Assembly (NCBI GenBank): GCA_027030245.1
Contig: JALVFE010000003.1
Location: 1-47,891, forward strand
From: Melioribacteraceae bacterium
GTDB taxonomy: Bacteria > Bacteroidota > Ignavibacteria > Ignavibacteriales > Melioribacteraceae
Reading direction: 5' to 3'
DNA length: 47,891 nucleotides
Shown: in pieces, positions 7,990-47,301 of the stretch
Numbering within the stretch: the first letter of the stretch is position 1
Layout: the number at the start of each line of letters is the position of its first letter
The notes under the pieces: model-generated
What the model saw: only the letters and a program-made list of their open reading frames with translations
What the model was told of the DNA's origin: nothing
The model's database searches: none
Program-made: the position numbers and the translations under genes

Positions 7990-8126
7990 AACATTTCGTA
8001 AAATATTTTAGTCTTTTCGTTTATTCATTTTTATTACCTTTGTAACCCGAAATTTTTCATGTATTTTTAAATAAACCGGATTATTTGTCTTAAAATAATT
8101 CACAACAAAATAGAAAACGAAGTAAA

Positions 8127-9380
8127 GTGTTAACAAATAGAAATAAAATTGAAGTAATGGCGCCGGTCGGTTCTTACGAGGCGTTAAGCGCGGCAATTAA
8201 AGCCGGAGCAGATTCGGTTTATTTCGGAATCGAACAATTAAATATGCGGGCGCGTTCGTCCATAAATTTTACGCTGGATGATTTACAGCGCATCTCGGAT
8301 ATCTGCAAAGAAAATAACATTAAATCGTACATTACGCTTAACACCGTTATGTACGATCACGATTTACAATTAATGCGTTCGATAGTTGATAAAGCAAAAG
8401 AATGCGGTATTTCGGCGGTTATAGCTTCCGATCATGCGGTAATGAACTATGCGAGAAAAACCGGAGTACCCGTGCACATTTCCACACAAGCAAACGTCAG
8501 CAATATTGAAACGGTTGAGTTTTACTCCGCTTTTGCAGATGTGATGGTTCTTGCAAGGGAATTGAGTTTGATGCAAGTAAAAGCAATTACGAAAGAAATT
8601 AAACGGAGGGGAATTACAGGACCGGGCGGCGGGCTGGTGAGAATTGAAGTTTTTGCCCACGGAGCGCTTTGTATGGCAATTTCCGGTAAGTGTTATTTGA
8701 GTCTGCACAATCATTATTCTTCCGCTAACAGAGGCGCCTGTGCTCAAGATTGTAGAAAGCAATACATTGTAACGGAAAAAGAAGAAGGGACGGAATTATT
8801 AATCGATAACGAATACATAATGAGCGCCAAAGATTTGTGCACCATCGATTTTCTTGATAAAATTGTTGACGCCGGTGTGGAAATAATCAAAATTGAAGGC
8901 AGAGGCAGATCATCCGATTATGTTTACACTACAACAAAATGTTACCGCGAAGCAATTGATGCGATTGCCGGAGGAACTTACACTCCGGAAAAAATATCGG
9001 CATGGAAAGAAGAACTTGCAACCGTTTACAACAGAGGATTCTGGGACGGTTATTATCTCGGCAGAAAAATGGGTGAGTGGAGCGATACTTATGGTTCGAA
9101 AGCCACAAAGAGAAAAGTCTTTATCGGGAAAGGTGTAAATTATTTCAAGAAAATTAAAGTGGCGGAATTCAAACTGGAAACAAAATCTTTGCGCGTCGGC
9201 GATGAAATATTAATTACCGGACCAACAACAGGTGTGATAAAAACCAAAGTTAAAGAATTGCGACTGGAAGACAAACCGGTTGAGCAAGTAAACAAAGGCG
9301 ATAATTTTTCTATGCCTTTGGATGAAATAATCCGACCTTCCGATAAACTTTACCGATTGGAAAAAGCAGTTAATGTTTAA
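8127..9380 (+). CDS. U32-family peptidase-like protein (TrhP/YegQ-type tRNA hydroxylation)
   Basis: The 417-aa protein begins KIEVMAPVGSYEALSAAIKAGADSVYFGI, the usual U32 TIM-barrel start. It has the U32 signature EVFAHGALCMAISGKCYLS with the following RGACAQDCRKQY, giving the cysteine set seen in TrhP/RlhA proteins. Those enzymes hydroxylate tRNA or rRNA rather than cut protein, so the peptidase name is probably historical. The start is GTG at 8127, with an ATG at 8157 as an alternative. The ferredoxin gene overlaps the last 8 bp in another frame, which points to a shared function. Length is near that of E. coli YegQ. Confidence 0.82.
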   Translation: MLTNRNKIEVMAPVGSYEALSAAIKAGADSVYFGIEQLNMRARSSINFTLDDLQRISDICKENNIKSYITLNTVMYDHDLQLMRSIVDKAKECGISAVIASDHAVMNYARKTGVPVHISTQANVSNIETVEFYSAFADVMVLARELSLMQVKAITKEIKRRGITGPGGGLVRIEVFAHGALCMAISGKCYLSLHNHYSSANRGACAQDCRKQYIVTEKEEGTELLIDNEYIMSAKDLCTIDFLDKIVDAGVEIIKIEGRGRSSDYVYTTTKCYREAIDAIAGGTYTPEKISAWKEELATVYNRGFWDGYYLGRKMGEWSDTYGSKATKRKVFIGKGVNYFKKIKVAEFKLETKSLRVGDEILITGPTTGVIKTKVKELRLEDKPVEQVNKGDNFSMPLDEIIRPSDKLYRLEKAVNV

Positions 9381-9600
9381 AATAATTCATTACAGAAAAA
9401 AATGTATAGGTTGCAATGCATGCGTTGAAGTTGCGCCGTTCCGCTGGAGAATGTCGAAAAAAGACGGGAAAAGCGTGCTAATAGAAGGTGAAGAGAAAAA
9501 AGGATTTTATATTACTTGGGTTAGCGATGATGAACTTGAGGAAAATAAAATTGCCGCACAAAACTGCCCTGTTAACATTATACGGATTGAGAAAAAATAA
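9373..9600 (+). CDS. Small single-cluster ferredoxin
   Basis: The 75-aa protein has C11-x2-C14-x2-C17 and a distant C65-P, the four ligands of one [4Fe-4S] cluster. The position after the third Cys that would serve a second cluster is Ala (VEVAP), so it holds only one. It is an electron carrier of about 9 kDa. The ATG overlaps the end of the U32 gene by 8 bp, so the two are translationally coupled. I infer that it supplies electrons to the U32 protein. A general redox role is the alternative. Confidence 0.85.
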   Translation: MFKIIHYRKKCIGCNACVEVAPFRWRMSKKDGKSVLIEGEEKKGFYITWVSDDELEENKIAAQNCPVNIIRIEKK

Positions 9601-10060
9601 TACGGGAATAAATTTCAAATTCCGAATAACAAATTTCAAACGTGAAACGTAAGAGACGTAAAACGTAAGACGGTAGACGGAAGACGTGAGAAGCACACAT
9701 TTTGCGTCCCGAGAATTATTTTTTATTTGCGAATTAGCGGCAATTCGATTGTTCTTTTTAGATCCCGAAACAATCCGCCGACGGTGGACGGGATGACACG
9801 TTCGTAGGCGGACGGGATGACATGTTCCTCTTACCGTCATGCTGAATTTATTTCAGCATCTAATTCAAATTACGCATTCCTTTTAGATCCCGAAACAAGT
9901 TCGGGATGACAGGTTTTATTCTGTGTCATCCTGTCCCGAAAGTTTTCGGGATCAGTATCTGATTTCACTGCTACCACCGTCTACACGGTGGTTGAATCTA
10001 CGTATGTTTATCTTTGTTAAACCGTTAGCTTATTATTTCGATATTCGTTAAATTTGATTT
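9601..10060. repeat. Intergenic island of small dispersed palindromes
   Basis: No gene is supported here. The stretch holds several short hairpins: ATGCTGAA/TTCAGCAT (9839-9859), ATCCCGAA/TTCGGGAT (9887-9907), CCCGAAA/TTTCGGG (about 9934-9951) and ACCACCGT/ACGGTGGT (9973-9992). Upstream is a run of ACGTAA-like short repeats (about 9640-9690). The same elements return at 42.6-43.0 kb, the ACCACCGT element in the opposite orientation. They look like small multicopy intergenic repeats. Confidence 0.65.
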
Positions 10061-10090
10061 CCCTATGAATCAGAGTTATCGGAGAAAAAT

Positions 10091-10894
10091 TTGATTAATT
10101 GGAATGTTAGTCCGGAAATTTTTTCAATCGGACCAATAACCATCCGGTGGTACGGACTCCTTTTTGCATCCGCATTTTTGGTCGGCTTTCAGATAATGAC
10201 TAAAATTTTCAAAAACGAAAAGAAAAATCTGGACGACTTAAACGATCTGGTTTGGTACATGATTTTAGGCACGGTTATCGGTGCAAGATTGGGCCATTGT
10301 TTGTTTTACAATCCTTCCTACTATCTTTCCCATCCGCTTGAGATTCTTCAAGTTTGGAAAGGCGGACTGGCAAGTCACGGAGCGGCAATCGGTATTTTAA
10401 TCGCAATTTATCTTTATTCAAAAAAGAAAAAAGACCAACCGTTTCTTTGGGTGATGGATAGGGTTGTTATAACAGTTGCTTTGGGTGGCTCGTTTATCAG
10501 ACTCGGCAATTTGTTTAACTCGGAGATTATCGGAAAACCGACGGATTTACCATGGGGATTTAAATTTGTTAGGGCGCATGTTGCCGATCCCTTAACTCCG
10601 CGTCATCCCGCACAGCTTTATGAATCGATTGCATATCTAATTACGTTTTTTGTGCTTTATAAAATTTATAACTCAAAAAAAGGTAAAATTCCCCAAGGTT
10701 ATTTATTCGGATTATTTTTAATCATTGTATTCGGGTTTAGATTTCTGGTTGAATTTATTAAGGAAAATCAAACTTATTTTGAAGAAGGAATGCTTCTGAA
10801 CATGGGGCAAATTCTTAGTATTCCGCTAATAATTCTTGGGATATATTTATTTCTTAAAAGTAAAAAAGAAACTGTACGGAAAGGTAAAAAATGA
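10091..10894 (+). CDS. lgt: Prolipoprotein diacylglyceryl transferase
   Basis: The 267-aa polytopic membrane protein attaches diacylglycerol to the lipobox cysteine of prolipoproteins. Lgt hallmarks are present: PITIRWYGLLF at the first membrane segment, TVIGARLGHCLFYNP, GGLASHGAAIG with the essential His, and a signature region RLGNLFNSEIIGKPT followed by RHPAQLYE. The start is TTG at 10091. It gives the usual short N-terminus, and no in-frame ATG is close. The next gene encodes a lipoprotein and overlaps by 4 bp (ATGA), so an enzyme and a likely substrate are cotranscribed. Confidence 0.95.
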   Translation: MINWNVSPEIFSIGPITIRWYGLLFASAFLVGFQIMTKIFKNEKKNLDDLNDLVWYMILGTVIGARLGHCLFYNPSYYLSHPLEILQVWKGGLASHGAAIGILIAIYLYSKKKKDQPFLWVMDRVVITVALGGSFIRLGNLFNSEIIGKPTDLPWGFKFVRAHVADPLTPRHPAQLYESIAYLITFFVLYKIYNSKKGKIPQGYLFGLFLIIVFGFRFLVEFIKENQTYFEEGMLLNMGQILSIPLIILGIYLFLKSKKETVRKGKK

Positions 10895-12057
10895 GAAAAA
10901 TAATAATAACCGGCTTGGTTTTAGCATTAACATTAATAATTAATTCGTGTTCCGGTAAAAAGGAGCAATCTTCCTATAAACCCGAACTTGACTCTTTAAG
11001 GTTTACCGGCGAAGTTCATCTCCGCAACATAAAACAATTAACTTTCGGCGGGAATAATGCCGAAGCGTATTGGAGCTTTGATAACAAGCAATTGATTTTT
11101 CAAAGTGACTGGGAAAAAATCAATCCGCAGGGTTGCGACCAGATTTTTATAATGAATGCCGACGGTTCGCTCTTACCCGAAGGGGAACGATACCGTCTGG
11201 TTTCAACCGGCAAAGGAAGAACAACCTGTTCTTATTTTTTGAAAAATCAAAAGAAAATTATTTATGCATCGACTCATGCAGCGGGTCCGGAATGCCCGGA
11301 AGCCCCTATGTTTGTTAACGGAAAATATGTTTGGAAAATTTTTCCCACTTACGATATTTATATTGCTAACACCGACGGCTCAGACCCTGAGGTTTTAATC
11401 GGTGGCGGAGGTTATGATGCCGAAGCAACGGTTTCCCCCGATGGAAAATACATTATTTTTACTTCAACACGTTCCGGTGATTTGGAATTATGGCGATATG
11501 AAATCGAAACAGGGGAATATTTACAACTTACATCGGAATTAGGTTATGACGGTGGTGCTTTTTTCTCAAATGATTCGAAAAAAATTGTTTGGCGTGCCAG
11601 TCGCCCCAAAGGCGAAGCCGCTGCACAGTATAAAGAACTTTTAGCGCAAGATTTGGTTGAACCGAAAGCCTTAAATATTTTTGTTGCAGATATAGACGGG
11701 AAAAATGTAAAACAAGTTACTGATTTACCCGGAGCCAATTGGGCACCGTTTTTCACCCCGGGCGATAAGAAAATTATTTTTTCTTCTAACCATCATTCTT
11801 TGAAAGAAGGCGGACGTTTATTTGATTTGTTTATGGTAAATTTGGATGGCACCGGACTCGAACAAATTACACATAGCGGAACATTCGATGCTTTCCCGAT
11901 GTTTTCATTCGACGGGAAAAAATTAGCTTTTGCTTCAAACAGAAGAGCCGACCGTAAGGATAGCAGAGCAACGAATATTTTTGTGGCGGATTGGATTGAA
12001 AATCCCGAAGAAGTGGATTTGAATTTCAAGACTTTGCAAACCGGAAGTAAAGAGTAA
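10891..12057 (+). CDS. TolB-like beta-propeller (PD40) lipoprotein
   Basis: The 388-aa protein starts with a lipoprotein signal peptide ending in a lipobox (IINSC at about residue 20). The rest is a series of WD40-like PD40 repeats with recurring D-G-K..IIFTS.R-type strands (for example SPDGKYIIFTSTRSGDLELW, and FSFDGKKLAFASNRR near the end). Such propellers bind proteins or glycans at the envelope. It overlaps lgt by 4 bp and is followed without a gap by the next gene. It is not TolB itself, as there is no TolB N-terminal domain. Function is unknown. Confidence 0.8.
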   Translation: MRKIIITGLVLALTLIINSCSGKKEQSSYKPELDSLRFTGEVHLRNIKQLTFGGNNAEAYWSFDNKQLIFQSDWEKINPQGCDQIFIMNADGSLLPEGERYRLVSTGKGRTTCSYFLKNQKKIIYASTHAAGPECPEAPMFVNGKYVWKIFPTYDIYIANTDGSDPEVLIGGGGYDAEATVSPDGKYIIFTSTRSGDLELWRYEIETGEYLQLTSELGYDGGAFFSNDSKKIVWRASRPKGEAAAQYKELLAQDLVEPKALNIFVADIDGKNVKQVTDLPGANWAPFFTPGDKKIIFSSNHHSLKEGGRLFDLFMVNLDGTGLEQITHSGTFDAFPMFSFDGKKLAFASNRRADRKDSRATNIFVADWIENPEEVDLNFKTLQTGSKE

Positions 12058-31173: not shown

Positions 31174-31334
31174 TTCTGTTAATTCCTTAAATCTTCTTTG
31201 TTTATTCTTTCCTTAATCTTTCGCAACCGTAACAAATACCGGCGAACTCCCAATATTTTACCCGATAAACTTTTTTGTTTTGATTATAATGGTTAATTTT
31301 AGAAGACAAAAATATCTTAATTGAGGTGACCGCA

Positions 31335-33587
31335 ATGAAAATCCGTAAACAAGAAGCTTTGGACTATCACAGTAAAGGACGCCCGGGTAAAATTGAAGTA
31401 AAATCCACCAAACCGTTTTTCACTTCGAGGGATTTATCTTTGGCTTATACTCCCGGTGTGGCAGAACCATGCTTAGAGATAAAAAACAATCCCGATGACA
31501 TATATAAATACACAACTAAAGGAAATTTGGTCGCTGTAATTTCTAACGGTACGGCTGTTTTGGGACTCGGTGCGATCGGTCCCGAAGCCGGCAAACCGGT
31601 TATGGAAGGGAAAGGAGTTTTATTTAAAAGATTTGCCGATATCGATGTTTTCGATTTGGAGGTAAACACGACCGATGCAGATGAATTTATTCACACTGTT
31701 GAATTGTTGGAGCCTACGTTCGGTGGAATAAATCTGGAAGATATTAAGGCGCCGGAATGTTTTAAGATTGAAGAAGAATTAAAAAAACGAATGAACATTC
31801 CCGTATTTCACGACGATCAGCACGGTACCGCTATAATCTCATGTGCGGCGTTAATTAACGCGGCGGAAATAGCCCGTAAAAAATTGGAAGATTTGAAAAT
31901 GGTTATAGTCGGTGCCGGAGCGGCGGGAATAGCATGTGCAAAACTTTATGTGCAAGCCGGAGTAAAAAAAGAAAATATTGCCATGTTCGATTCGAGAGGG
32001 CATATCTCAAAAGACAGAACAGATTTGAATCCTTATAAACAAGAGTTTGCCGGCGAGACAAAATTTGATTCCCTCGAAGAAGCGATGAAAGGCGCCGATG
32101 TTTTTGTCGGACTCTCAAAGCCCAATTTGGTTTCCAAGGATATGGTTAGAAGCATGGCGGATAATCCGATTATCTTTGCCCTTGCTAATCCCGATCCGGA
32201 AATAACTTACGAAGACGCAATTTCCGTAAGAGATGATTTAATAATGGCAACCGGCAGAAGCGATTATCCTAATCAAGTTAACAATGTGCTCGGCTTCCCC
32301 TTTATTTTCAGAGGTGCGCTGGATGTTAGAGCCAAAGCAATCAACGAAGAAATGAAAATGGCAGCCGTAAAAGCGCTTGCTAATTTGGCTAAAGAAAAAG
32401 TTCCCGAAGTTGTAATCAGAGCATACGGAAACAAAGAATTTTCTTTTGGAAGGGATTATATTATTCCTAAACCCTTCGATCCCCGCGTGCTTTGGAAAGT
32501 TGCTCCCGCAGTGGCAAAAGCTGCAATCGATTCGGGTGTGGCTCGTGAAACAATTGACGATTGGCTGGATTACGAAGAAAAATTAAAAGAACGACTCGGT
32601 TATTCTCAAGAAGTGATAAGAGCGATGATACACAAAGCTCAAAGAAATCCGAAAAAAGTGGTTTTCCCCGAAGGAGAAGAAGAAAGAATTATAAGAGCTG
32701 CCTATGATGCTGCCGTACACGAACAAATTGCCGAGCCGATTTTGTTGGGTGACAAAAAAGTTATTGAGAATATGATAACCAATTTCGGCTTCGACAAAAA
32801 TGTTTTTACAGTTATAGAACCCGAAAAGGACGAACGCTTAGCAAAATATGCCGATGAGTTTTATCAGATGCGTCAACGGAAAGGTGTAACACAAAGAGAA
32901 GCTATGCGTTTGATGAAACAGCCAACTTATTTCGGTTCTATGATGGTGAAAAACGGCGATGCCGATACGTTATTGGGAGGATTAACGAGACATTATCCCA
33001 ATACAATCAGACCAGCATTGCAATGTATAGGGGTTAAAGAGGACATAGGTTTAGTAAGCGGTTTGTACATTGTTATAGTGAACCGTAAAGTGTATTTCTT
33101 TGCTGATACCACGGTTAATATAAATCCCACTTCCGAAGATTTGGCAAAGATTGCCATAAGCACTGCCGATACCGTTAAAGAATTCGATATAGAACCGCGT
33201 GTGGCAATGCTGTCATTCAGCAATTTCGGCAGCGTTAAACACCCCGAAGCAAATAAAGTTAAAGAAGCTGTGGAAATTGTTAACAAATTAAGACCCGATA
33301 TTATTCTGGACGGAGAAATGCAAGCCGATACGGCAGTGGTAACCGATATTTTAAAATCGGAATTTCCATTTTCCAGATTAAAAACGGCGGCTAACGTTCT
33401 TATCTTCCCCGATTTGAATGCCGGAAACATAGCTTACAAATTGATTGAAAGAATAACCGACGCTTCGGTGATTGGTCCTATTTTAATGGGAATGAAAAAA
33501 CCGGTTCATGTATTACAACGAAGTGCAACGGTGAATGATATTGTGAACATGACGGCAATAGCTGTTGTGGATGCTTTGAAACGGTGA
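31335..33587 (+). CDS. maeB: NADP-dependent malic enzyme with phosphotransacetylase-like C-terminal domain (MaeB type)
   Basis: The protein is about 750 aa. The N-terminal malic enzyme part has [20 protein letters not shown] and [13 protein letters not shown] (NAD(P) site). From about residue 425 it continues as a Pta-like domain starting [18 protein letters not shown]. In MaeB proteins this domain binds acetyl-CoA and regulates but does not catalyse. It oxidises malate to pyruvate with NADP. The ATG at 31335 follows TGAGGTG. The GTG at 31326 is in frame but overlaps that site. A TATAAT lies at 31285-31290 without a clear -35 box. Confidence 0.92.
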
Positions 33588-34344: not shown

Positions 34345-36451
34345 AATATTGAGTGTTAAAACATATTATTTGTTTTCTGTTCTTTTTATCCTCACCGGCA
34401 ATTATAACAAATCACAAATACTTTTTGCCCAACAACAATATGAATTGGTCGATATAGAATTTACCGGGGAAAAAGTGTTTTCATCTTCGGAATTGGAGAG
34501 TGTCATTTCCGCTCAAGAATCACCAGGGTGGTTATCAAAAGCAATAAACAGTATTACGACCTTTCAAACAAATACTATTTACTTTGATTCGTTGCTTATT
34601 CCTTCCGACGTTGAAGCCTTGCGGCAGTTTTATATGGCGCATGGTTATTTTAAGGCAAAAATATCATCGCAATATAAATTGGATAACAAAACCCTTGAAG
34701 CTTATTTGACATTCAATATCGATGCCGGTCCGGCATTTCGCGTGAGAAACGTAGACATAAAAGGATTGAAAAAAATTCCGGTTGAATTTCAAAAAATGAT
34801 TTATTCCGATCTTACGCTCGATTCTACTGCACTATATTCCGATAAATTGGTTGAGGTTAATAAAAATTTTATACTGAATTTTTTGTATGATCACGGGTAT
34901 ATGCTTGCAAAAGCTTCGCTTCCTGTTGTTGAGATAGATACAATGCTGAACACTACGGATGTTAAGCTGGAATTTTTACCTGGCGGAAGATATAAAATAA
35001 ATAATATACTTGTCGAGCGTACCGGCGAGGGTAAGGATTTGGTTGACGACGATTTGATTTACGAAATAGCTGATTTGAAACCCGGGAATTATTATAGTTT
35101 ATACGATTTGAAAAAAGCCCAGATACGTTTGTATCGAACTAATCTGTTTACTTCCGCATTGGTAAGCGGTGTTGTTAGCGATACTGTCGATCATTTTGTC
35201 CCAATCAAAATTGCCGCCGATGTTGGCTTTTTACACGAGCTTTCACCGGAGCTTGTGTTAATTAACGAAGAAAATACTTTCAAGTTCGGGTTCAGTTTAA
35301 GTTTTATGAAAAAGAATTTCCTTGGCGGAGCAAGAAAATTCACAACACGCATTTCCTCGGCTGCACAAAATATTGCTGATTTTATTTCGAATCCATCCCT
35401 TACGGAAAATAATGTTTTCGGATATATCGATTTTAGGCTCGGACTTGAGCAACCGTTTATTCTCGGAAAACCTATTTACACGAAATTGGAAAATTATTAC
35501 ACTCTTCAAAAAAAGCAAAACCAATATAACACAAGACTAATCGGTGCGGAACTCAGTTTGAATTTTGAATTGCCCAAATATACTTATCTTACTTCGCTTT
35601 CGGGATATTTGAATATTCAAGCATCCGAATATATTTTCCAAACGGAATATATAAAAAACGTATTTTCCATATTTACCGATACATTAATAATCAATCCTTT
35701 AACCAGTAAAAGTACGAATGTATTGCTCGGAATACATTTGGGTGCCAATAAAACGGATAAATATGTTTTCCCAACGCGCGGATATAGCCTTTCACTTGAT
35801 TTGGAAGACGGTAACTCTCTTTCGTATTTGTTTGGCCAAATTGGCGGTTACAATATGAATGCTCCGCTCTACTATAAAGTTTTACTTAGTTCTTCGGTTT
35901 ATTTACCCGTATATGCGAATGACGAAAATGCTTTCGGAATTAAAATTAAAACGGGATTTATTCATACATATCGCGGAGATAAATTTAGTATCCCCTTGAA
36001 CGAACGGTTTATTGCCGGCGGTAGTAACTCGGTACGTGCATGGAAAACAAACGATCTTACTCCTCCACTTACAACCATCAATCAATTACCCGAAAATATT
36101 ACAAAAGAGGAATTGGAAAGCGTACTTCTTAAAGGAATTACTCCAGGCGGTTTTTTCCTATTCGAAAGCTCCATTGAAACGAGAAACAGAATCTACGGCA
36201 ATTTCGGAACGGCTTTATTTATTGATGTTGGAAACACATGGAACAGTTACAAAGAATTCAGATTCGACGGGCTTGCCGTCGCAGTAGGATTCGGACTAAG
36301 ATATTATTCAAGTTTCGCTCCGATTAGGATTGACTTGGGTGTAAAAGCTTACGACCCCTTCGATAGACGTCCTTTCGGTGAAAGGATAAACGACTACCGG
36401 GGTTTTTGGAACACAACTTCAATTCAATTGGGAATAGGAGAAGCATTTTAA
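34322..36451 (+). CDS. Omp85-family (BamA/TamA-like) outer membrane protein
   Basis: The protein is about 709 aa. The N-terminus has a hydrophobic signal ending near QILFAQQ, then about three POTRA-like modules (for example VDIEFTGEKVFSSSEL and FRVRNVDIKGLKKIP). The C-terminal half is a beta barrel rich in alternating aromatic strands. It has a NERFIAGGSNSVRAW motif, the conserved loop of Omp85 barrels, and ends in a short strand LGIGEAF. Such proteins insert or translocate outer membrane proteins. It is not the main BamA by length or motif alone. The start (34322 or 34325) overlaps the previous gene by about 20 bp. Confidence 0.85.
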   Translation: MMLRLLIKILSVKTYYLFSVLFILTGNYNKSQILFAQQQYELVDIEFTGEKVFSSSELESVISAQESPGWLSKAINSITTFQTNTIYFDSLLIPSDVEALRQFYMAHGYFKAKISSQYKLDNKTLEAYLTFNIDAGPAFRVRNVDIKGLKKIPVEFQKMIYSDLTLDSTALYSDKLVEVNKNFILNFLYDHGYMLAKASLPVVEIDTMLNTTDVKLEFLPGGRYKINNILVERTGEGKDLVDDDLIYEIADLKPGNYYSLYDLKKAQIRLYRTNLFTSALVSGVVSDTVDHFVPIKIAADVGFLHELSPELVLINEENTFKFGFSLSFMKKNFLGGARKFTTRISSAAQNIADFISNPSLTENNVFGYIDFRLGLEQPFILGKPIYTKLENYYTLQKKQNQYNTRLIGAELSLNFELPKYTYLTSLSGYLNIQASEYIFQTEYIKNVFSIFTDTLIINPLTSKSTNVLLGIHLGANKTDKYVFPTRGYSLSLDLEDGNSLSYLFGQIGGYNMNAPLYYKVLLSSSVYLPVYANDENAFGIKIKTGFIHTYRGDKFSIPLNERFIAGGSNSVRAWKTNDLTPPLTTINQLPENITKEELESVLLKGITPGGFFLFESSIETRNRIYGNFGTALFIDVGNTWNSYKEFRFDGLAVAVGFGLRYYSSFAPIRIDLGVKAYDPFDRRPFGERINDYRGFWNTTSIQLGIGEAF

Positions 36452-36508
36452 GAAAATAATTTTATATTTAATAATTGAATTTCCCCATCTTTTAGAAACG
36501 GGGGTTTT

Positions 36509-38914
36509 ATGTTTCGCATTATAACTGAAGGGCTTGATTACAAAGAGCACGTTTTACTTAAAGACGGACAAGGAATTTTGTTAAAGCCCGCCACGCCCGC
36601 AGATTTTCCGCTAATTAAATCTTTTATGAAAAGGGTCTCCCGCGAAAGTTTACATATGAGATTTATGGCAGCCGTTTCGGAAGTCTCCGATGATTTAATT
36701 AAAAATTTGTGTACCGGCGATTTTAGAGAATCCGGTTGTCTTTTGGCAATTACGGGAGAAGGCGAAAACGAAAGAGTTGTAGGCGTGGGGAATTATACTG
36801 CAACAGGCAACGGGCGATCCGCAGAAATCGCATTTTTGATAGAAGATGATTTTCAAGGTAAAGGAATAAGTACTTTGCTTTTGGAACGGCTTGCCGGTTT
36901 GGCTGCGGCAAACGGAATAATAGAATTGGAAGCGGAAGTTCTGCCCGATAATCAACCGATGATTAATGTATTTAAGAGTTCGGGATTTACCGTTCACCAG
37001 GTTTGGAGTTCCGATACAATTCATATCGAACTTCCGGTTGGGAGCGCTGCGGCATTGTGGAAAAAAGCCGAATTGCGCGAGCGTATTGCGGTTGCAAATT
37101 CTCTCTCCCCCATATTAAATCCCAAAACCGTTGCCGTAATCGGTGCATCGAGAGATCAAAATTCAATCGGGAACATCATTTTCAGAAACATACTAAACGG
37201 AGGATTTACCGGAACCCTTTATCCCGTTAACCCCGAAGCAATATCGATTAACGGAGTGAAAGCTTACTCGAAAATTTCCGAGCTTCCCGAGAAAATTGAT
37301 CTTGCAGTAGTTTCGGTTCCCGCAGAGAAAGTTTTACCCGCAGTAGAAGAAGCAATAAAAGCCGGAACGAAAGGATTCGTAATAGTCTCGGCAGGTTTTG
37401 CCGAAATTGGGGAAGAAGGGAAAAAACGGCAACAACAATTGGTTGAAATTATCCAAGCAAACGGTGTTAGGCTTGTAGGTCCTAGTTGTTTGGGAGTGAT
37501 GAACACAAATCCGCAAATATTACTTAACGCAAGTTTAGCGCCGGAAATGGCTCCGCGCGGTCCAGCGGGATTCTTTTCGCATTCGGCGGCATTGGGCCTT
37601 GTAATTTTGGAATACGCAACGGAACACGGTCTCGGGTTTACTTATTTCGTTTCGGCGGGAAACCGGGCTGATGTAACTGGAAACGATTTGCTTCAATATT
37701 GGGAAGAAGACCCGGATACAAAAATGGCAATTATGTATCTCGAGTCTTTTAAAAATCCCAGAAAATTTGTGCGCGTCGCAAGAAGAATGTCTTACAAAAA
37801 ACCGGTTTTATGCGTAAAGAGCGGAAGGAGCAGGGAAGGTAAAAAAGCTACAGAAAAACGGAGTGGAATTCCGGGCGCCGGCGATGTGGAAGTGGAAGCA
37901 TTGTTCGAACAAACCGGAGTAATTCTTGCGGAAACCCTGGAAGACCTGTTCGATATTGCTTTGGTTTTGGCTCACCAACCTTTGCCAAAAGGTAACAAAG
38001 TAAGCATTATCGCAAATTCGGCCGGAATGGCAACCATATTCGCCGATTCGTGCGAAGCGAACGGTTTGGATATTGCCGGACCGGGTTTGGTTAATCTTGG
38101 AGCTTTCACTTCCCCGGAAAATTATGAAAAAACCGTCTTCGAAGCTTTAATAAACGATAATGTGGATGCGTTGTTAATCGGTTATGCTTGCGTTGGTAAT
38201 TGCACAACGCAACCGTTCGCAAAAGCAATCAGAAACGGAGTTAAAAAAGCCGAAGAAACAACCAAAGTGCAAAAACCCGTTCTGCTTTGTTTGATGGGCG
38301 AAGTCGGATCGGTATCATTAATCGAGGAAGACGACGAAAAACGGATGTTTCCCGCTTTCCGGTTCCCCGAAGCTGCCCCTAAAGCCTTGGGAAAAATAGT
38401 GAAATATGTAAACTTCAAAAATGTTCCGCACGGCGAAATGGTTTGGTTCGAAGATATTAAAGCCGAAGAGAGTAGAAAACTGGTATTGCAAATAATCGAA
38501 AGTAATTCCGGTAAAGATGAAATTATTCAAGTGAAACCTTCCGATGCGGTTAAAATTTTGAAAAACTTTAACCTCGATATCGCCCTTACCGTAAAGGATG
38601 TTGCCGAGAGGGCAGAAGTTAAAGTTAAAACGGATTCTTTGTTCGGACCCTTAATCGAATGCAGAAAAAATTCTAAATCCGTTCTTCGGATTACTCCGCT
38701 TACCGATAGGGATATTAATGAAATTATTAAGGATTTGAATATTAACAACACAAACAAAATGAAAGAAATACTTGGTAAAATTTCCCAGTTGATTGAGGAA
38801 ATCCCCTGGCTTTGGAGTTTGAAAATTACAGTTTTTTGTAAAGGACAAATTGCCATTTCACCCGAAGTTAAAATGGAGTTGAAAACTTCGGGAATAAAAA
38901 GACCTTCTTACTAA
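36509..38914 (+). CDS. Pat-like protein acetyltransferase: GNAT fused to a degenerate ADP-forming acyl-CoA synthetase
   Basis: The protein is 801 aa. Residues about 15-175 are a GNAT acetyltransferase with acetyl-CoA motif EDDFQGKGISTLLLERL. Residues about 200-490 are the CoA-binding and ligase part of ADP-forming acyl-CoA synthetases (VAVIGASRDQNSIGN, GPSCLGVMN, FFSHSAALG). The expected phospho-His (S-H-T-G) is replaced by Arg (KRSG, R451). The C-terminal 150 residues resemble a shortened ATP-grasp lacking its ATP-binding half. So the synthetase part is probably a sensor and the GNAT the enzyme, as in Pat. The next two genes are AcuB- and AcuC-like, which supports protein lysine acetylation. 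Confidence 0.82.
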   Translation: MFRIITEGLDYKEHVLLKDGQGILLKPATPADFPLIKSFMKRVSRESLHMRFMAAVSEVSDDLIKNLCTGDFRESGCLLAITGEGENERVVGVGNYTATGNGRSAEIAFLIEDDFQGKGISTLLLERLAGLAAANGIIELEAEVLPDNQPMINVFKSSGFTVHQVWSSDTIHIELPVGSAAALWKKAELRERIAVANSLSPILNPKTVAVIGASRDQNSIGNIIFRNILNGGFTGTLYPVNPEAISINGVKAYSKISELPEKIDLAVVSVPAEKVLPAVEEAIKAGTKGFVIVSAGFAEIGEEGKKRQQQLVEIIQANGVRLVGPSCLGVMNTNPQILLNASLAPEMAPRGPAGFFSHSAALGLVILEYATEHGLGFTYFVSAGNRADVTGNDLLQYWEEDPDTKMAIMYLESFKNPRKFVRVARRMSYKKPVLCVKSGRSREGKKATEKRSGIPGAGDVEVEALFEQTGVILAETLEDLFDIALVLAHQPLPKGNKVSIIANSAGMATIFADSCEANGLDIAGPGLVNLGAFTSPENYEKTVFEALINDNVDALLIGYACVGNCTTQPFAKAIRNGVKKAEETTKVQKPVLLCLMGEVGSVSLIEEDDEKRMFPAFRFPEAAPKALGKIVKYVNFKNVPHGEMVWFEDIKAEESRKLVLQIIESNSGKDEIIQVKPSDAVKILKNFNLDIALTVKDVAERAEVKVKTDSLFGPLIECRKNSKSVLRITPLTDRDINEIIKDLNINNTNKMKEILGKISQLIEEIPWLWSLKITVFCKGQIAISPEVKMELKTSGIKRPSY

Positions 38915-38929
38915 AAGAGGTATGATTAA

Positions 38930-39559
38930 ATGTTAGTTCAAGAAATAATTCATAAAGAACCCGTAACTATTTCTCCGGATACAAAATTGTTCGCTGCATA
39001 CGAATTGATGCTGAAAAAAAATATCCGGCATCTGCCCGTTTTGGAGAATGGTAAATTGGTTGGAATAATAACCGACCGCGATTTACGTTCGGCTACAAGT
39101 AAATTAGCCGAAGTACCGTTTCAACCGGAGGACGAAGTAGGAAAAATTATGGTTAAAAATGTGATAACCGTTCACCCGAAGGATCCGATAGATGTGGCGG
39201 CAAAGTTAATGCGAGAAAACAAAATTGGCTGTTTGCCTGTTATGGAAAACGATGCGCTCGTTGGAATCGTTACAATTTCCGATATGCTTGATGCTTTGCT
39301 TAAGCTTACCGGAGTTCACCGTCCTTCGGGCAGATTGGAAATTAACTTATCGGATAAACCAGGGGAATTAGCAAAACTTGCGCAACATTTGGCGGAAAGG
39401 AAAGTTAATATTCATTCCATTCTTACTTATCCCGCGGTGAACGGGAAAATCAGAATTGTGTTGCGGATCAGCACAATAGATATCCGCGGAATTGCGCAAG
39501 GTCTTTGCAATGCCGGTTTCGAAGTAATATGGCCGACTCAAATGTCATGTGCGGATTAG
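38930..39559 (+). CDS. acuB: AcuB-like CBS-CBS-ACT regulatory protein
   Basis: The 209-aa protein has two CBS motifs (about 8-60 and 75-130), with NIRHLPVLENGKLVGIITDRDLR and IGCLPVMENDALVGIVTISDML each recognisable. An ACT domain (about 135-205) contains GRLEINLSDKPGELAKLAQ. CBS pairs bind adenine nucleotides, and ACT domains bind small ligands. AcuB of Bacillus has the same size and order and lies in acuABC. It has a 15-bp gap to the Pat-like gene and overlaps acuC, so the three form one operon. It probably senses energy state. Confidence 0.85.
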   Translation: MLVQEIIHKEPVTISPDTKLFAAYELMLKKNIRHLPVLENGKLVGIITDRDLRSATSKLAEVPFQPEDEVGKIMVKNVITVHPKDPIDVAAKLMRENKIGCLPVMENDALVGIVTISDMLDALLKLTGVHRPSGRLEINLSDKPGELAKLAQHLAERKVNIHSILTYPAVNGKIRIVLRISTIDIRGIAQGLCNAGFEVIWPTQMSCAD

Positions 39560-40680
39560 TTGTTCACCCGAAATATTTGGATTACGATTTAGGCGACCGG
39601 CATCCGTTCAGTCCGCTCCGCATTCAAATGGTTACGGAGCTTTTAACGGAATTGGGTCACAAATTGAAGTTTGAAACTCCGGAAGTTGTTCCACCGGAAA
39701 AACTGGAAATCATTCATGACCCGGAATATATTGAAGTTGTTGAAAAAGCCGGTAAGGGAATTGAGGCGGAAAATTTTGAGCAGTACGGTTTGGGTACAGC
39801 CGATAATCCCGTTAAAACCGGAATGGCGGAATCTGCGAGATACATTGCGGGCGGAACATTGCACGGAGCAAAATTGTTGTTGGAAGGTAAATTTAACAAA
39901 GTGTTGCAATTCGGCGGTGGGTTTCATCATGCCCGTAAAAACCTGGCTGCCGGTTTTTGTTTGTATAACGATTTGGCATTGGCAATTAAGGAAATGACGT
40001 TGCACGGTTGGCATGTTGCTTATCTCGATATCGATGTGCATCACGGCGACGGCGTACAAGAACTTTTTTACGATGACGATAAAGTGATGACTATCTCTTT
40101 ACACGAATCGGGCGAATTTCTTTTCCCGGGAACAGGGTGGATTTACGAATCGGGAAAGGGAATGGGGAGATCGCTCAAACTTAACTTACCCCTTGAACCT
40201 TTTACGGAAGGTGATTCTTACATTTTTGTTTTAGAAAAACTGTTGGACGAAGCTTTATCGTATTTCAAACCGGATGCTTTAATCGTGCAAGCGGGAGCCG
40301 ACCCGCACTTTTCGGATCCCCTTGCGGATTTAATGCTTACCACAAACGATTTCGAAAAGATATACAAAATCATTTTGCAGAAAACCGATGCGTACGCAAA
40401 GGGAAAGGTTATGTTTACTTTCGGAGGAGGTTATTCGCTTGTGGCAACCGCGAGAATATGGAGTTTATTGTATTTGGTTTTAACCGGCTCCGGAATTCCG
40501 GATAAATTACCTGTTGCATGGAAACAAAAATGGGAGGAAAGACTGGGAATTAAAATCAGCGATTCTTTTCACGATCCCAATCCTTCCTACAACCCTATTC
40601 CCCGAAAAGAGGAAATTACAAATCATAACAAAGATATGCTCAGGCGTTTACTCGATATGGTAACACCCGATTGGCTTTAA
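39529..40680 (+). CDS. acuC: AcuC-like lysine deacetylase (histone deacetylase fold)
   Basis: The protein is about 383 aa. The deacetylase site is complete, with GGGFHHARK (His pair), YLDIDVHHGDGVQE (zinc Asp and His), VQAGADPHFSDPLADL (second Asp) and FGGGYS. It removes acetyl groups from lysines. In Bacillus AcuC reactivates acetyl-CoA synthetase. The start is ATG at 39529 (31-bp overlap with acuB) or ATG at 39547 (13-bp overlap). The upstream neighbour is a writer (Pat-like), so writer, regulator and eraser sit together. The end overlaps the opposite S33 gene by 4 bp. Confidence 0.87.
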   Translation: MADSNVMCGLVVHPKYLDYDLGDRHPFSPLRIQMVTELLTELGHKLKFETPEVVPPEKLEIIHDPEYIEVVEKAGKGIEAENFEQYGLGTADNPVKTGMAESARYIAGGTLHGAKLLLEGKFNKVLQFGGGFHHARKNLAAGFCLYNDLALAIKEMTLHGWHVAYLDIDVHHGDGVQELFYDDDKVMTISLHESGEFLFPGTGWIYESGKGMGRSLKLNLPLEPFTEGDSYIFVLEKLLDEALSYFKPDALIVQAGADPHFSDPLADLMLTTNDFEKIYKIILQKTDAYAKGKVMFTFGGGYSLVATARIWSLLYLVLTGSGIPDKLPVAWKQKWEERLGIKISDSFHDPNPSYNPIPRKEEITNHNKDMLRRLLDMVTPDWL

Positions 40681-43765: not shown

Positions 43766-46700
43766 TTACCTTTCACCCAATATTAATTCAACGTTAATGG
43801 TTTTCCCGTTTCTTTCCACCGTTAAAACAACTTTATCGCCGGGTTGATGTTTTTTTAGTAAATTCGAGTAGTCCCGTAAATTGGCAACGGTTTCACCGTT
43901 GAATTTTTTTATAACATCACCTTTTTGAAGCCCGGCTTTTTCCGCAGGCGAAGAAGGCACCAAGCCGCCAATTTTTACTCCTTTTCCGTTGAAAGCAAAA
44001 TCCGGAATTGTGCCGGTGCTTGCTCTTCTTGTCGTTTTATTTTTCACGGCGGACTTCGTAACCTTTTTGCCGGATGCAATTTCACCTTGAAAATTCAACG
44101 GTTCTTTTCTATCGGCTAAATAATTAATTACTTCCTTTGCCACGGTAGCAGTTTTAACCATTCCGTCGGCGTCAATTTTATCCGGCGTATCCGTCGGGCG
44201 GTGGTAATCCAAATTAGGTCCGCTGAAAAATTGTACTGCCGGAATCCCGTTGCGTATAAAAGAAACTTGATCGCTTGCATCCAATTGCTGGGTTACCAAA
44301 TCGGTTGGTATTCCGGTTACGAAATCTGTTCCCATAAAAATAAATTTCCATTCCCTTGCACTGTTGCCGTTTAGTATTAATAATTTTTTACCTTCCAATC
44401 TTCCGACAGTGTCGAGATTAATATCCGCAATTGTGTTATCGGGCGTGGCGGGAAAGTGTTTTACGAAATATTTCGACCCGAGAAGTCCCGCTTCTTCACC
44501 CGAAAAAGCAACAAACATAATGGTTCTTTTTGGTTTTGCCGATTTAGCCAATGATTTTGCCAACTCGAGTAAAACAGCAACTCCGCTTGCATTATCGTCT
44601 GCGCCGTAGTGAATTTTTCCTTTGTTACCTTTTCTTACGTCGGGCCAACCTAAACCCAAATGATCGTAATGAGCGGAGATTATTACATAAGTGTTTTTCA
44701 ATTCCGGATCATTTCCGGGTATAACTCCAACTATGTTTTTTATTTCTATTTTACCTTTGTCTTTAAAATTATGCGTAAAGTTTTGGTAGTAAGTTTTATT
44801 ATCCCCGGACGGAATTAATCCGGCTTTTTTAAATTCGTTTGCAATATATCCGGCGGCTTTGTCTAATTCGGGAGTGCCAAGACCGCGCCCCTTCATTTCC
44901 GCAGAAGCAAGAAAATTTACATGTTCCAACATTCGCTTTGCCGAAAAAACGGGTGCAAGCTTTGCCAAAGCTTTTCTTTCGGGAAATTTGGGTTTTACGT
45001 CTCCGGCAGATTTATTCAGAGTTTTTATAAGCGGCGAATTAACGGTTTTCCACTGACCTTTCTCAATATTTGTCGGTTCATCGCCTTCGAAAGCCAAGTA
45101 ACTGTATTTGCCGTAGTGGGGAAGTTTTCTCACCAAGCCCGGAATTGCTTTTTCGTTGTTTACCGAAAAGAATACGAAAACTTCTTTTACGTTTTTGGGG
45201 TTTCTTGCCGAAATTATGAAAGATTTATTTTCCGCAGGTATTTCTTTTTTCCCGAACTTAACCGAATTTTTCAAAACGGCGGCATCATGCTTTTTAATTA
45301 TATTGCCGAATTGATTTAAGAATTTATTTTCGAATCCCAAAATCCAAACGGATTTGTTTTCAGGCAAAGTTTCCACTTCGTCGTCAGTCACAACATCAAA
45401 CCGGTCTTCTTTTTTGTTAATCCAGTTTTGAACAAACTTTTCGTATAATTTTTTATCGGATGAATTTGCTGGTAAAACAATTAAAGATTTTTTGGCGCCG
45501 TAAGCCGTCGACAATGCCGGAGGCACTTCGTTGGGGTCCACTTTTCTGAATACATCGTAGTAAGGATCGATATAAACGCGGAGTGGTTTGCTTTTTACGT
45601 TTATGCTAAATCTTTCGTTTTTCTTATTCATAGATACTTTTTCCGGGTGCATTCCTTCTGAAGTTAAAATATAAACCGGAATATCGATTGCAAATGCATC
45701 GCCGGATTGGGTTTGCTCAAACTCGATTGTTACATCATAAAAATCGCGCAAAGGTTTGACTTCAATGTTTTTCAAATTAAGGACGGGCGCTCCTTTTCTG
45801 TTTACCCATTGTTCGAAAAACGGTTTGAAATTTTCCCCCGTAATTTCTTCGAAGGATTTCCGGATATCATCAAAGGAAGCGACTTTAAATTTGTAATTGC
45901 GGTAAAAGTGTTGGAACGATTTAACAAAGTTCTCGTCACCCGTTTTTATTCGTAACATGTGCCACATCATTAACGATTTACCGTAACCTATTGCTTCACT
46001 TGATGCATTATATCTCGAAATAAATTTTTTAAGAGGGAAATCGTTTTTTACGTTAACGTAATCTGTAAATTTTTGTAATGTTGATCGGCGGTATTCAACG
46101 CCTTTCCCACGTTGCTCCTTTATCAGATGATCCGCCATGTAAGCCGTTAGACCTTCGCACCAATTTCCGTTTTTGAAATCGACATATACACTGTTTCCCC
46201 ACCAATTGTGTAACAGTTCGTGAGGATAAGAAGAATGAAGAATGAACGGGAAACGGATTATCTTTTGTCCGAGCAGTGTAAACGAAGGCATTCCGTAACC
46301 GGTTTCCCAAAAGTTTTCCACCAAAGCGAATTTCCAATAAGGATAAGGACCTATCAGCTGTCTGTACATTTCCAAATATTGTGCGGTGGTTTCCAGGTAT
46401 TTATTTGCAAGCGATTCATCGGGTGTTCTTAGAAATGCCATAGCCAATACGTTCCCAACGGGATATTGGTATTCCGTGAATTTTGCCCCGATGAGAAAAA
46501 CTTCTTCTTGCGGTTCGGGTGAATTCCATACATCGATGTGAAAATCTATTTCGTTTTTACTTTCGGTGCGCTTACCTTGGGAAACGCTTTTCCAGCCTTT
46601 GGGTAAAACGGTTTTAAGGTTGAAAGTAATTAATTGGTCTTTAAATTGAGGCACCCAATAAGTTGAACCGGCAAGGTAAATACCAAGGGTATCGATGATG

Positions 46701-47134
46701 CCGGGCGATTCGCTGAATCCGCGTTGATAATTTTCTTCGCTTTGTTTTACCGGGGAATGAATTTTCCCTTTGTAAACAAGTTTGAATTTTACTCCGGCGG
46801 GGAAGTCTTTTTTCAGCAAAAGTTCATATTCGTTAAGCAATAATTTATTTTTATTTCCCGCATCGTCCCTATCCATTCCGATATCTTTAGCGGGAACGTT
46901 AACGCCCGTAATAATTAATCTTATCCCTTTGGTTTTTAGCAATGGTTTAAGGTTTGCGTTCAGTTTGAATTTTATAGTGTTCTCGGAAAGTTCAGGCGGA
47001 ACTCTTATTTCGTCCGTTACTTCAATGTATGAATTTTGCGGAAATACTTTTGCGGTTATTTCGTGATGGATTTTTTTTGTTTGAGCAATAACCACAATAT
47101 TGAACAATACGATTAAAATCAAAAATCTCTTCAT
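43766..47134 (-). CDS. Secreted M1-like aminopeptidase fused to M28 peptidase and PDZ domain
   Basis: The protein is 1122 aa from the ATG at 47134, preceded by AAGGTG. A start 33 bp upstream would lengthen the signal peptide. The signal peptide is MKRFLILIVLFNIVVIAQ. Residues about 20-540 are an M1-type metallopeptidase with HELLHNWWGN (305-314) and the Glu of GNWCEGLTAY. Residues about 730-1010 are M28 with AHYDHLG, GADDNASG, GEEAGLLGS, NLDTVGR and the late His of DYHRPTD, all zinc ligands. The last 75 residues are a PDZ domain. It should digest peptides outside the cytoplasm. Confidence 0.85.
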   Translation of the reverse strand: MKRFLILIVLFNIVVIAQTKKIHHEITAKVFPQNSYIEVTDEIRVPPELSENTIKFKLNANLKPLLKTKGIRLIITGVNVPAKDIGMDRDDAGNKNKLLLNEYELLLKKDFPAGVKFKLVYKGKIHSPVKQSEENYQRGFSESPGIIDTLGIYLAGSTYWVPQFKDQLITFNLKTVLPKGWKSVSQGKRTESKNEIDFHIDVWNSPEPQEEVFLIGAKFTEYQYPVGNVLAMAFLRTPDESLANKYLETTAQYLEMYRQLIGPYPYWKFALVENFWETGYGMPSFTLLGQKIIRFPFILHSSYPHELLHNWWGNSVYVDFKNGNWCEGLTAYMADHLIKEQRGKGVEYRRSTLQKFTDYVNVKNDFPLKKFISRYNASSEAIGYGKSLMMWHMLRIKTGDENFVKSFQHFYRNYKFKVASFDDIRKSFEEITGENFKPFFEQWVNRKGAPVLNLKNIEVKPLRDFYDVTIEFEQTQSGDAFAIDIPVYILTSEGMHPEKVSMNKKNERFSINVKSKPLRVYIDPYYDVFRKVDPNEVPPALSTAYGAKKSLIVLPANSSDKKLYEKFVQNWINKKEDRFDVVTDDEVETLPENKSVWILGFENKFLNQFGNIIKKHDAAVLKNSVKFGKKEIPAENKSFIISARNPKNVKEVFVFFSVNNEKAIPGLVRKLPHYGKYSYLAFEGDEPTNIEKGQWKTVNSPLIKTLNKSAGDVKPKFPERKALAKLAPVFSAKRMLEHVNFLASAEMKGRGLGTPELDKAAGYIANEFKKAGLIPSGDNKTYYQNFTHNFKDKGKIEIKNIVGVIPGNDPELKNTYVIISAHYDHLGLGWPDVRKGNKGKIHYGADDNASGVAVLLELAKSLAKSAKPKRTIMFVAFSGEEAGLLGSKYFVKHFPATPDNTIADINLDTVGRLEGKKLLILNGNSAREWKFIFMGTDFVTGIPTDLVTQQLDASDQVSFIRNGIPAVQFFSGPNLDYHRPTDTPDKIDADGMVKTATVAKEVINYLADRKEPLNFQGEIASGKKVTKSAVKNKTTRRASTGTIPDFAFNGKGVKIGGLVPSSPAEKAGLQKGDVIKKFNGETVANLRDYSNLLKKHQPGDKVVLTVERNGKTINVELILGER

Positions 47135-47301
47135 TTTATCACCTTGGGGAAACGTAAAAAATTTCATACATCAATATATAAATAACCGCAATTTGTTTGA
47201 TACTGACATTTTTTTCTTTTTTTATATTAAATATTTAAACCCGATATCCGATAATACAAAAACAAAGGCATCAATTTAGTTAAACAAAACTCGGAGAAAT
47301 A

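Follow-up and report, generated by a model that had tools for sequence, protein, structure and literature searches.

What is controlled by a gene cluster in which a fused, Pat-like protein acetyltransferase stands in front of the nucleotide sensor and the deacetylase of the Bacillus acu operon? The question is raised by a stretch of 47,891 nucleotides (contig JALVFE010000003.1 of assembly GCA_027030245.1; hereafter the window) from a Melioribacteraceae bacterium with a genome of 3.8 Mb, where a gene joining a GNAT acetyltransferase to an acyl-CoA synthetase-like part is followed by acuB and acuC. In Bacillus and Geobacillus, AcuA acetylates and inactivates the acetyl-CoA synthetase AcsA at its C-terminal active-site lysine and AcuC reverses the modification (PMC11255334, PMC13121692; here and below, citations refer to excerpts of the papers named). 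The Bateman domain of AcuB binds adenine nucleotides, and AMP-bound AcuB inhibits AcuC (PMC13121692); AcuB also binds Ap4A and contacts AcuC through its ACT domain (PMC13039410). This role of AcuB as a nucleotide sensor, which acts on AcuC and not on AcuA, was published in 2026 for Bacillus and Geobacillus (PMC13121692, PMC13039410), and the Firmicutes are given as the range of the operon (PMC13121692).

The answer that we favor, with a probability of about 0.77, is that the cluster would control a cluster-specific type of acetyl-CoA synthetase (Acs) through reversible lysine acetylation, a type II Pat being the writer and AcuC an eraser gated by AcuB. The GNAT domain of the fusion would move the acetyl group from acetyl-CoA to K642 of Acs (in PKTRSGKIMRR) and thereby switch the enzyme off, while the synthetase-like half would most likely be an acyl-CoA-binding part that contributes to regulation and oligomerisation. 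AcuC would strip the acetyl group and switch Acs on again, unless the CBS pair of AcuB has bound AMP or Ap4A, whereupon AcuB would keep AcuC inactive, so that Acs would stay off at low energy charge or under stress. All of these biochemical steps are carried over from published work on relatives; what the present analysis contributes are the domains, the retained catalytic and ligand-binding residues, the gene order, the linkage to acs and the co-occurrence of the cluster with an Acs subtype.

Gene order and the acetyl-CoA synthetase that accompanies it

Is the order fusion-acuB-acuC more than chance? We think so, because it recurs in all four genomes of the genus (4/4) and because 20 of the 27 genomes found to carry a member of the fusion clade show it on a single contig. 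The 27 comprise 22 loci from a contig scan plus the window genome, G303, G306, G285 and G432; the scan used two N-terminal peptide patterns, by which diverged relatives are missed, and returned 23 loci, from which the divergent Actinoplanes locus L107 is subtracted. The 20 include L092, where acuC is read in two frames, and some loci at contig edges. A preliminary description of the locus, made from the letters of the DNA, had named conservation of this order as a point to check, and the order is indeed kept. Wherever the contig continues, acuB follows the fusion in 22 of 24 genomes; acuC lies on a different contig in L100 and G303, acuB-acuC precede the fusion in L105, and the contig ends inside the fusion in L101 and L109. 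Frames are broken in acuC (L085, L092), in the fusion (L100, L153) and in acs (L102, L109). Among 79 genomes of the family, in searches that scored up to 15 candidates per genome, acuC was found in 15 and the GNAT part of the fusion in 14; in the fifteenth acuC genome, G285, the fusion tail sits at a contig edge. An even draw of 395 genomes across the phylum gave the fusion GNAT in three. The unit is patchy in its distribution yet kept together.

The gene that most often stands in front of the cluster is acs: of the 26 genomes that could be assessed, 16 carry it immediately upstream of the fusion and in the same orientation (L088, 089, 090, 091, 093, 095, 096, 097, 098, 099, 100, 102, 104, 106, 108 and 109), and 74-262 bases separate the two genes in the 15 loci measured; the contig of G285 begins within the fusion, so that its upstream side cannot be assessed. 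In ten genomes acs is preceded, at 30-68 bases, by a gene of the GPR1/FUN34/YaaH family, presumably an acetate transporter; in six of them acs is linked to the fusion (L088, 089, 091, 097, 106, 108), and in the other four it lies elsewhere (L146, 147, 149, 150). L102 and L104 have such a gene some 1.5 kb ahead of acs, and none was found in the other eight of the 16 acs-linked loci. The family assignment comes from Pfam for two copies and from similarity to one of them for the remainder. The common form of the cluster is acs-pat-acuB-acuC, and satP-acs-pat-acuB-acuC is a longer form seen in part of the loci.

The strongest evidence for Acs as the target is the co-occurrence of the cluster with one subtype of the enzyme. 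When the Acs of the window genome was compared with the 79 family genomes, taking one match per genome, the identities fell into two distinct ranges, 82-100% (14 genomes) and 42-46% (47 genomes, including four partial genes), and 18 had no match at E 1e-60. The closely matching, cluster-type Acs is present in 14 of the 15 cluster genomes and in none of the 64 others (Fisher p 1e-14, uncorrected for shared ancestry), which carry either the 42-46% type (47 genomes) or no Acs at the threshold (17). The sole cluster genome lacking the subtype, G285, is 68% complete and shows no Acs at all. Scores against TIGR02188 split in the same manner, 759-782 versus 926-971 bits among the longer matches, and when 22 cluster-type sequences were aligned with 30 ordinary ones, identity was 72-99% and 78-100% within the two groups and 40-46% between them. 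The subtype occurs even where acs lies apart from the cluster, namely in the window genome itself (L086) and in G249, G303, G304, G306 and G271. Within a single genus, g123, two cluster genomes carry the subtype, two cluster-free genomes carry ordinary Acs and one has no Acs. The earlier proposal of a writer, sensor and eraser unit aimed at acetyl-CoA synthetase thus draws support both from the linkage of acs and from a subtype that, in this family, is confined to cluster genomes.

Several observations weigh against this reading. The co-occurrence counts are not independent, because the genomes share ancestry. Ten of the 26 assessable genomes, that of the window among them, lack an acs gene immediately upstream in the same orientation (the others are L087/G249, L092/G304, L094, L101, L103/G271 with 1.9 kb visible, L105, G303, G306 and G432). 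In L099, a bin titled Spirochaetota (8001-11606), acuC follows the fusion directly and no acuB was found in the 16.7 kb locus, so that writer and eraser occur there naturally with the sensor missing, and in G432 neither acuB nor acuC was found within about 6 kb of the fusion, the search being confined to these stretches. The target motif PKTRSGK is non-specific: 29 of 30 ordinary sequences have it, as do 21 of 22 cluster-type ones, the exception being a truncated frame. At the level of residues, which were checked in the window and in 17 loci picked because their genes are complete or almost so, the last position of the CoA-loop motif of the fusion is Ser in 14/18 and Gly in 4/18, and the published motif ends in Gly or Ala (PMC8556138); M188 of Geobacillus AcuB, a contact to AcuC, corresponds by our own mapping to I183 in the window and is Met in ten and Ile in eight of the 18 (the acidic AcuC contacts are without a firm mapping). 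The window genome encodes two sirtuins (SIR2; C32:93514-94032 and C38:19566-20084), and a second kind of deacetylase could therefore also act on Acs. Finally, PatA of Streptomyces lividans, which does acetylate the Acs of Salmonella enterica, acts poorly on its own Acs in vitro (PMC4053389).

The alternative that survives these points best is a type II Pat whose main target is something else, either another AMP-forming ligase or many proteins, with acs linked to it as a gene of acetate use. S. lividans PatA acetylates its own acetoacetyl-CoA synthetase, but its own Acs poorly (PMC4053389), which speaks for such a target, as does the fact that genes of one pathway are often clustered and that acs of the window genome is on another contig (C35). 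Moreover, the segment from K-52 to K+17 of Acs is 39-52% identical between cluster-type and ordinary sequences (49 of the 52 rows, with the frame-broken L109 and L102, and L119, excluded), so that the flanks of the lysine are no more distinct than the protein at large and carry no special mark of recognition by the writer. Another target would, on the other hand, explain neither why writer and eraser sit directly behind acs in 16 of 26 genomes nor why the Acs subtype tracks the cluster even when unlinked (14/15 versus 0/64), and we regard it as unlikely. Considerably less probable still is that the unit is drifting in the lineage of the window, where acs, unlinked both here and in G249, would have moved away and the role would perhaps be in the course of being lost: the fusion, AcuB and AcuC all retain their full length and share 82, 82 and 74% identity with their counterparts in G249, the checked residues are kept, and both genomes have the cognate Acs, with 97% identity to each other.

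The fusion protein and its partners

The N-terminal position of the GNAT given in the preliminary description is borne out by the Pfam matches: Acetyltransf_1 at residues 76-160 (E 6.8e-10), CoA_binding_2 at 206-332 (E 7.6e-25) and Succ_CoA_lig at 351-486 (E 3.6e-45). The protein can be divided into the GNAT (about 1-185), a part resembling the alpha part of acyl-CoA synthetases that form nucleoside diphosphates (NDP; about 196-640) and a tail (641-801) with a remnant of an ATP-grasp domain; its length varies between 798 and 812 residues across 18 relatives, and that of the tail between 159 and 169 (18/18). For the GNAT part, sequence matches to S. lividans Pat (GNAT domain; 4nxy, 2.8e-20; 4u5y, 1.3e-19; 31-32% identity) are joined by matches in fold (template-modelling score TMt 0.82 and 0.89, respectively); according to its title, 4u5y shows a complex with the C-terminal domain of acetyl-CoA synthetase. 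The middle part resembles 4xyl (1.1e-73 by sequence), and Escherichia coli PatZ is among the top fold matches of the synthetase half (9it0, E 1.5e-34; 9isq was matched as well). E106, which we take to correspond to the general base in Pat GNATs, is kept in 18/18, as are G117 and G119 of the CoA loop, and Q116 in 17/18.

What has become of the synthetase half? The catalytic His of its SHTG motif is replaced by Lys in 14/18 and by Arg in 4/18. Five comparison proteins have 67-77 residues in a block of the ATP-grasp domain, the ATP-grasp Lys and the His of the HK(T/S) motif among them, where the four fusion members aligned with them have none; a glycine-rich stretch has gone from the same members. 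The ATP-grasp profile PF13549 is weakly matched in 10 of 18 fusion members (best 0.0027) and, in the profile search, without a match in the window protein and L104; L087 and L099 match profile positions 108-196 and 99-201 of 221 alone. By comparison, the same profile gave 9.7e-54 for the GNAT-first protein of Actinoplanes (L107), 1.4e-90 for a GNAT-last fusion of the phylum (L036) and 9.5e-54 for the window genome's own intact synthetase without a GNAT (L002). It is mainly the later part of the domain that survives, and on these alignments we read the tail as a decayed ATP-grasp domain. In the predicted structure of the protein (mean predicted local distance difference test, pLDDT, 76.6; predicted template-modelling score, pTM, 0.73) the tail forms a folded unit; the model is weak at residues 324-347, which were kept out of the interpretation. 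With the His replaced and the ATP-grasp block gone, the synthetase half is expected to be without ligase chemistry. The likeness to an acyl-CoA synthetase, on which the preliminary description had based its sensor half, is confirmed, but the loss of part of the ATP-grasp domain had been overlooked. That the fusion is instead a metabolic NDP-forming synthetase that makes or uses acetyl-CoA and merely has a GNAT attached is highly improbable: its match to the NDP-forming acetate-CoA ligases of TIGR02717 (E 8e-120) would speak for such a role, though it scores 400 bits against a cut-off of 567, but the catalytic His is Lys or Arg in 18/18, the ATP-grasp block is absent and the genome holds a separate intact synthetase (L002).

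AcuB has two CBS domains (3e-36) and an ACT domain (1.6e-9) in Pfam, and its top sequence match in the PDB is AcuB of Geobacillus stearothermophilus (1.9e-38). The residues of the nucleotide site, I32, R33, H34, D51, I113, T115 and D118, are kept in 17, 18, 18, 18, 17, 18 and 16 of 18, respectively, the site being that listed for G. stearothermophilus AcuB in PMC13121692 and mapped through the PDB alignment with an inferred index shift of one. Among the positions reported to touch AcuC in Geobacillus AcuB, a C-terminal tryptophan, W201, is conserved in 18/18. AcuC matches Hist_deacetyl (7.5e-79), and H127, H128, D161, D163, H165, D252 and Y296, which we take to be the zinc ligands, the His pair and the catalytic Tyr, are each kept in 18/18. 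AcuC of Bacillus subtilis, for its part, has been placed in a class I-like sub-cluster (PMC11532494, without mention of a gene cluster like the present one).

Known relatives and the spread of the cluster

How does the unit compare with known systems? It shares with Bacillus acuABC the position of the writer gene in front, followed by AcuB with its CBS-CBS-ACT arrangement and by an AcuC resembling class I histone deacetylases, as well as an adjacent acs in many relatives and the same kind of target lysine motif. It differs in that AcuA is a small stand-alone GNAT whereas the writer here is a type II Pat fusion of 801 residues, and in that acsA is divergent in Bacillus whereas the linked acs lies upstream on the same strand here. 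In one relative, G432 (L156; 6874-8979 on the minus and 9260-11692 on the plus strand), a diverged form of the fusion and acs are divergent and 280 bases apart, as acuABC and acsA are in Bacillus.

GNAT-first fusions form a named class, the type II GNATs, in which the synthetase domain is inactive (PMC8556138). The window protein resembles this class, and S. lividans PatA in particular, in its N-terminal GNAT, in the synthetase-like part behind it and in the lost catalytic His; unlike them, it lacks the block of about 70 ATP-grasp residues, whereas the Actinoplanes protein with the same domain order keeps a full-scoring domain, and it is followed by acuB and acuC in the same cluster. A complete ATP-grasp domain is a feature seen in the Actinoplanes control, and is not stated as defining type II in the excerpt of PMC8556138. 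The type I enzymes, E. coli PatZ and S. enterica Pat, also combine a GNAT with an NDP-forming synthetase-like part, but in the opposite order. Among the matches to the fusion in sampled genomes of the phylum, 12 stretches outside the genus were inspected; ten of them carry a GNAT-last fusion, the other two being a synthetase without a GNAT (L046) and a locus cut by the contig end (L035). Two GNAT-last fusions of the phylum (L036:5416-8202 and L043:4813-7530) retain the SHTG His and the HKTD motif that mark active NDP-forming synthetases, in contrast to the Pat enzymes, whose synthetase domain is described as inactive, and could be bifunctional ligase-acetyltransferases. In Actinoplanes subtropicus (L107:6725-10529) a deacetylase gene (Hist_deacetyl, 2e-87) stands directly before the GNAT-first Pat, and no acuB was found in the 16.7 kb of that locus.

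A cluster of Pat with acuB and acuC, with or without acs in front, was not found reported in the titles and abstract openings of the open-licence literature. What is new here is the combination of a type II Pat with a decayed ATP-grasp domain, acuB-acuC and an Acs subtype of its own; the single parts are known.

The titles of the bins that carry the unit read Melioribacteraceae/Ignavibacteriales, Bacteroidetes, Chlorobiota, Calditrichia, Spirochaetota and Acidobacteriota. An initial impression that the fusion is limited to the genus of the window, based on 247 sampled genomes of the phylum without a second full-length match (up to four candidates scored per genome), was dropped when the AcuC search and the contig scan found it elsewhere. 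Nor is a recent transfer to be read from G+C content: the three genes are at 0.42-0.43 and the window at 0.37, but equal or nearly equal values are reached by the malic enzyme-Pta gene (0.411) and by this genome's acs (0.433). The tree of the fusion protein was likewise given up as proof of transfer, as the label changes counted for Ignavibacteriota and for Bacteroidota are not fewer than in many shuffles; 8 of its 17 inner branches are open, and bin titles are unreliable. In this tree the two Acidobacteriota form a clean group, and the nearest row to the window protein is a bin titled Melioribacteraceae, Ignavibacteriota.

It is nevertheless conceivable, if tentative enough that we would put it somewhat below even odds, that acs-pat-acuB-acuC is a portable cassette for acetate activation, with its own Acs subtype, writer, eraser and energy sensor and, in some hosts, a transporter-type leader, which would have spread between phyla and replaced ordinary Acs. 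With the ATP-grasp core shed from the synthetase half of the writer, acyl-CoA binding alone might then gate its GNAT, nucleotide sensing having perhaps been passed to AcuB on the side of the eraser.

The locus in the window and what the cluster may mean

The coordinates of the cluster are collected in the table below; open frames and Pfam domains agree with the gene content, order and positions of the preliminary description. The start of acuC, as read from the sequence, is most likely the ATG at 39547 and not the TTG at 39505 that opens the long frame, and acuB and acuC therefore overlap by 13 bases.

Table 1. Features of the fusion-acuB-acuC cluster, in window positions
Feature	Position	Strand	Basis
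Fusion gene (GNAT plus acyl-CoA synthetase-like part; type II Pat-like writer)	36509..38914	+	open frame, 801 residues; Pfam
acuB (two CBS plus ACT), 209 residues; predicted adenine-nucleotide sensor inhibiting AcuC	38930..39559	+	open frame; Pfam
acuC (class I type Zn-dependent deacetylase)	39547..40680	+	open frame from ATG; Pfam
57-base interval that separates the Omp85/BamA-like gene upstream from the fusion gene	36452..36508	+	

A single, weak promoter-like match lies at 36448-36475, by the gap before the fusion; the promoter scan gave nine matches against a mean of 9.0 in shuffled sequence, hence no excess, and the terminator scan seven against 6.2. Inverted repeats are present ahead of the fusion gene. 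The gene three places before the cluster, in the same orientation, encodes a malic enzyme fused to a phosphate acetyltransferase domain (31326-33587). Farther along, on the minus strand (43766-47167), lies a gene for a protein of 1133 residues that, judged by eye, may join an M1-type to an M28-type peptidase and end in a PDZ domain.

What, then, would the cluster mean for the control of acetate activation? It extends the energy-sensor circuit of AcuB beyond the Firmicutes. With a type II Pat clustered with Acs, AcuB and AcuC, reconstitution could show whether type II enzymes really control Acs, and the partial deletion of the sensor domain of Pat that nature has made here could show which part of it regulation needs.

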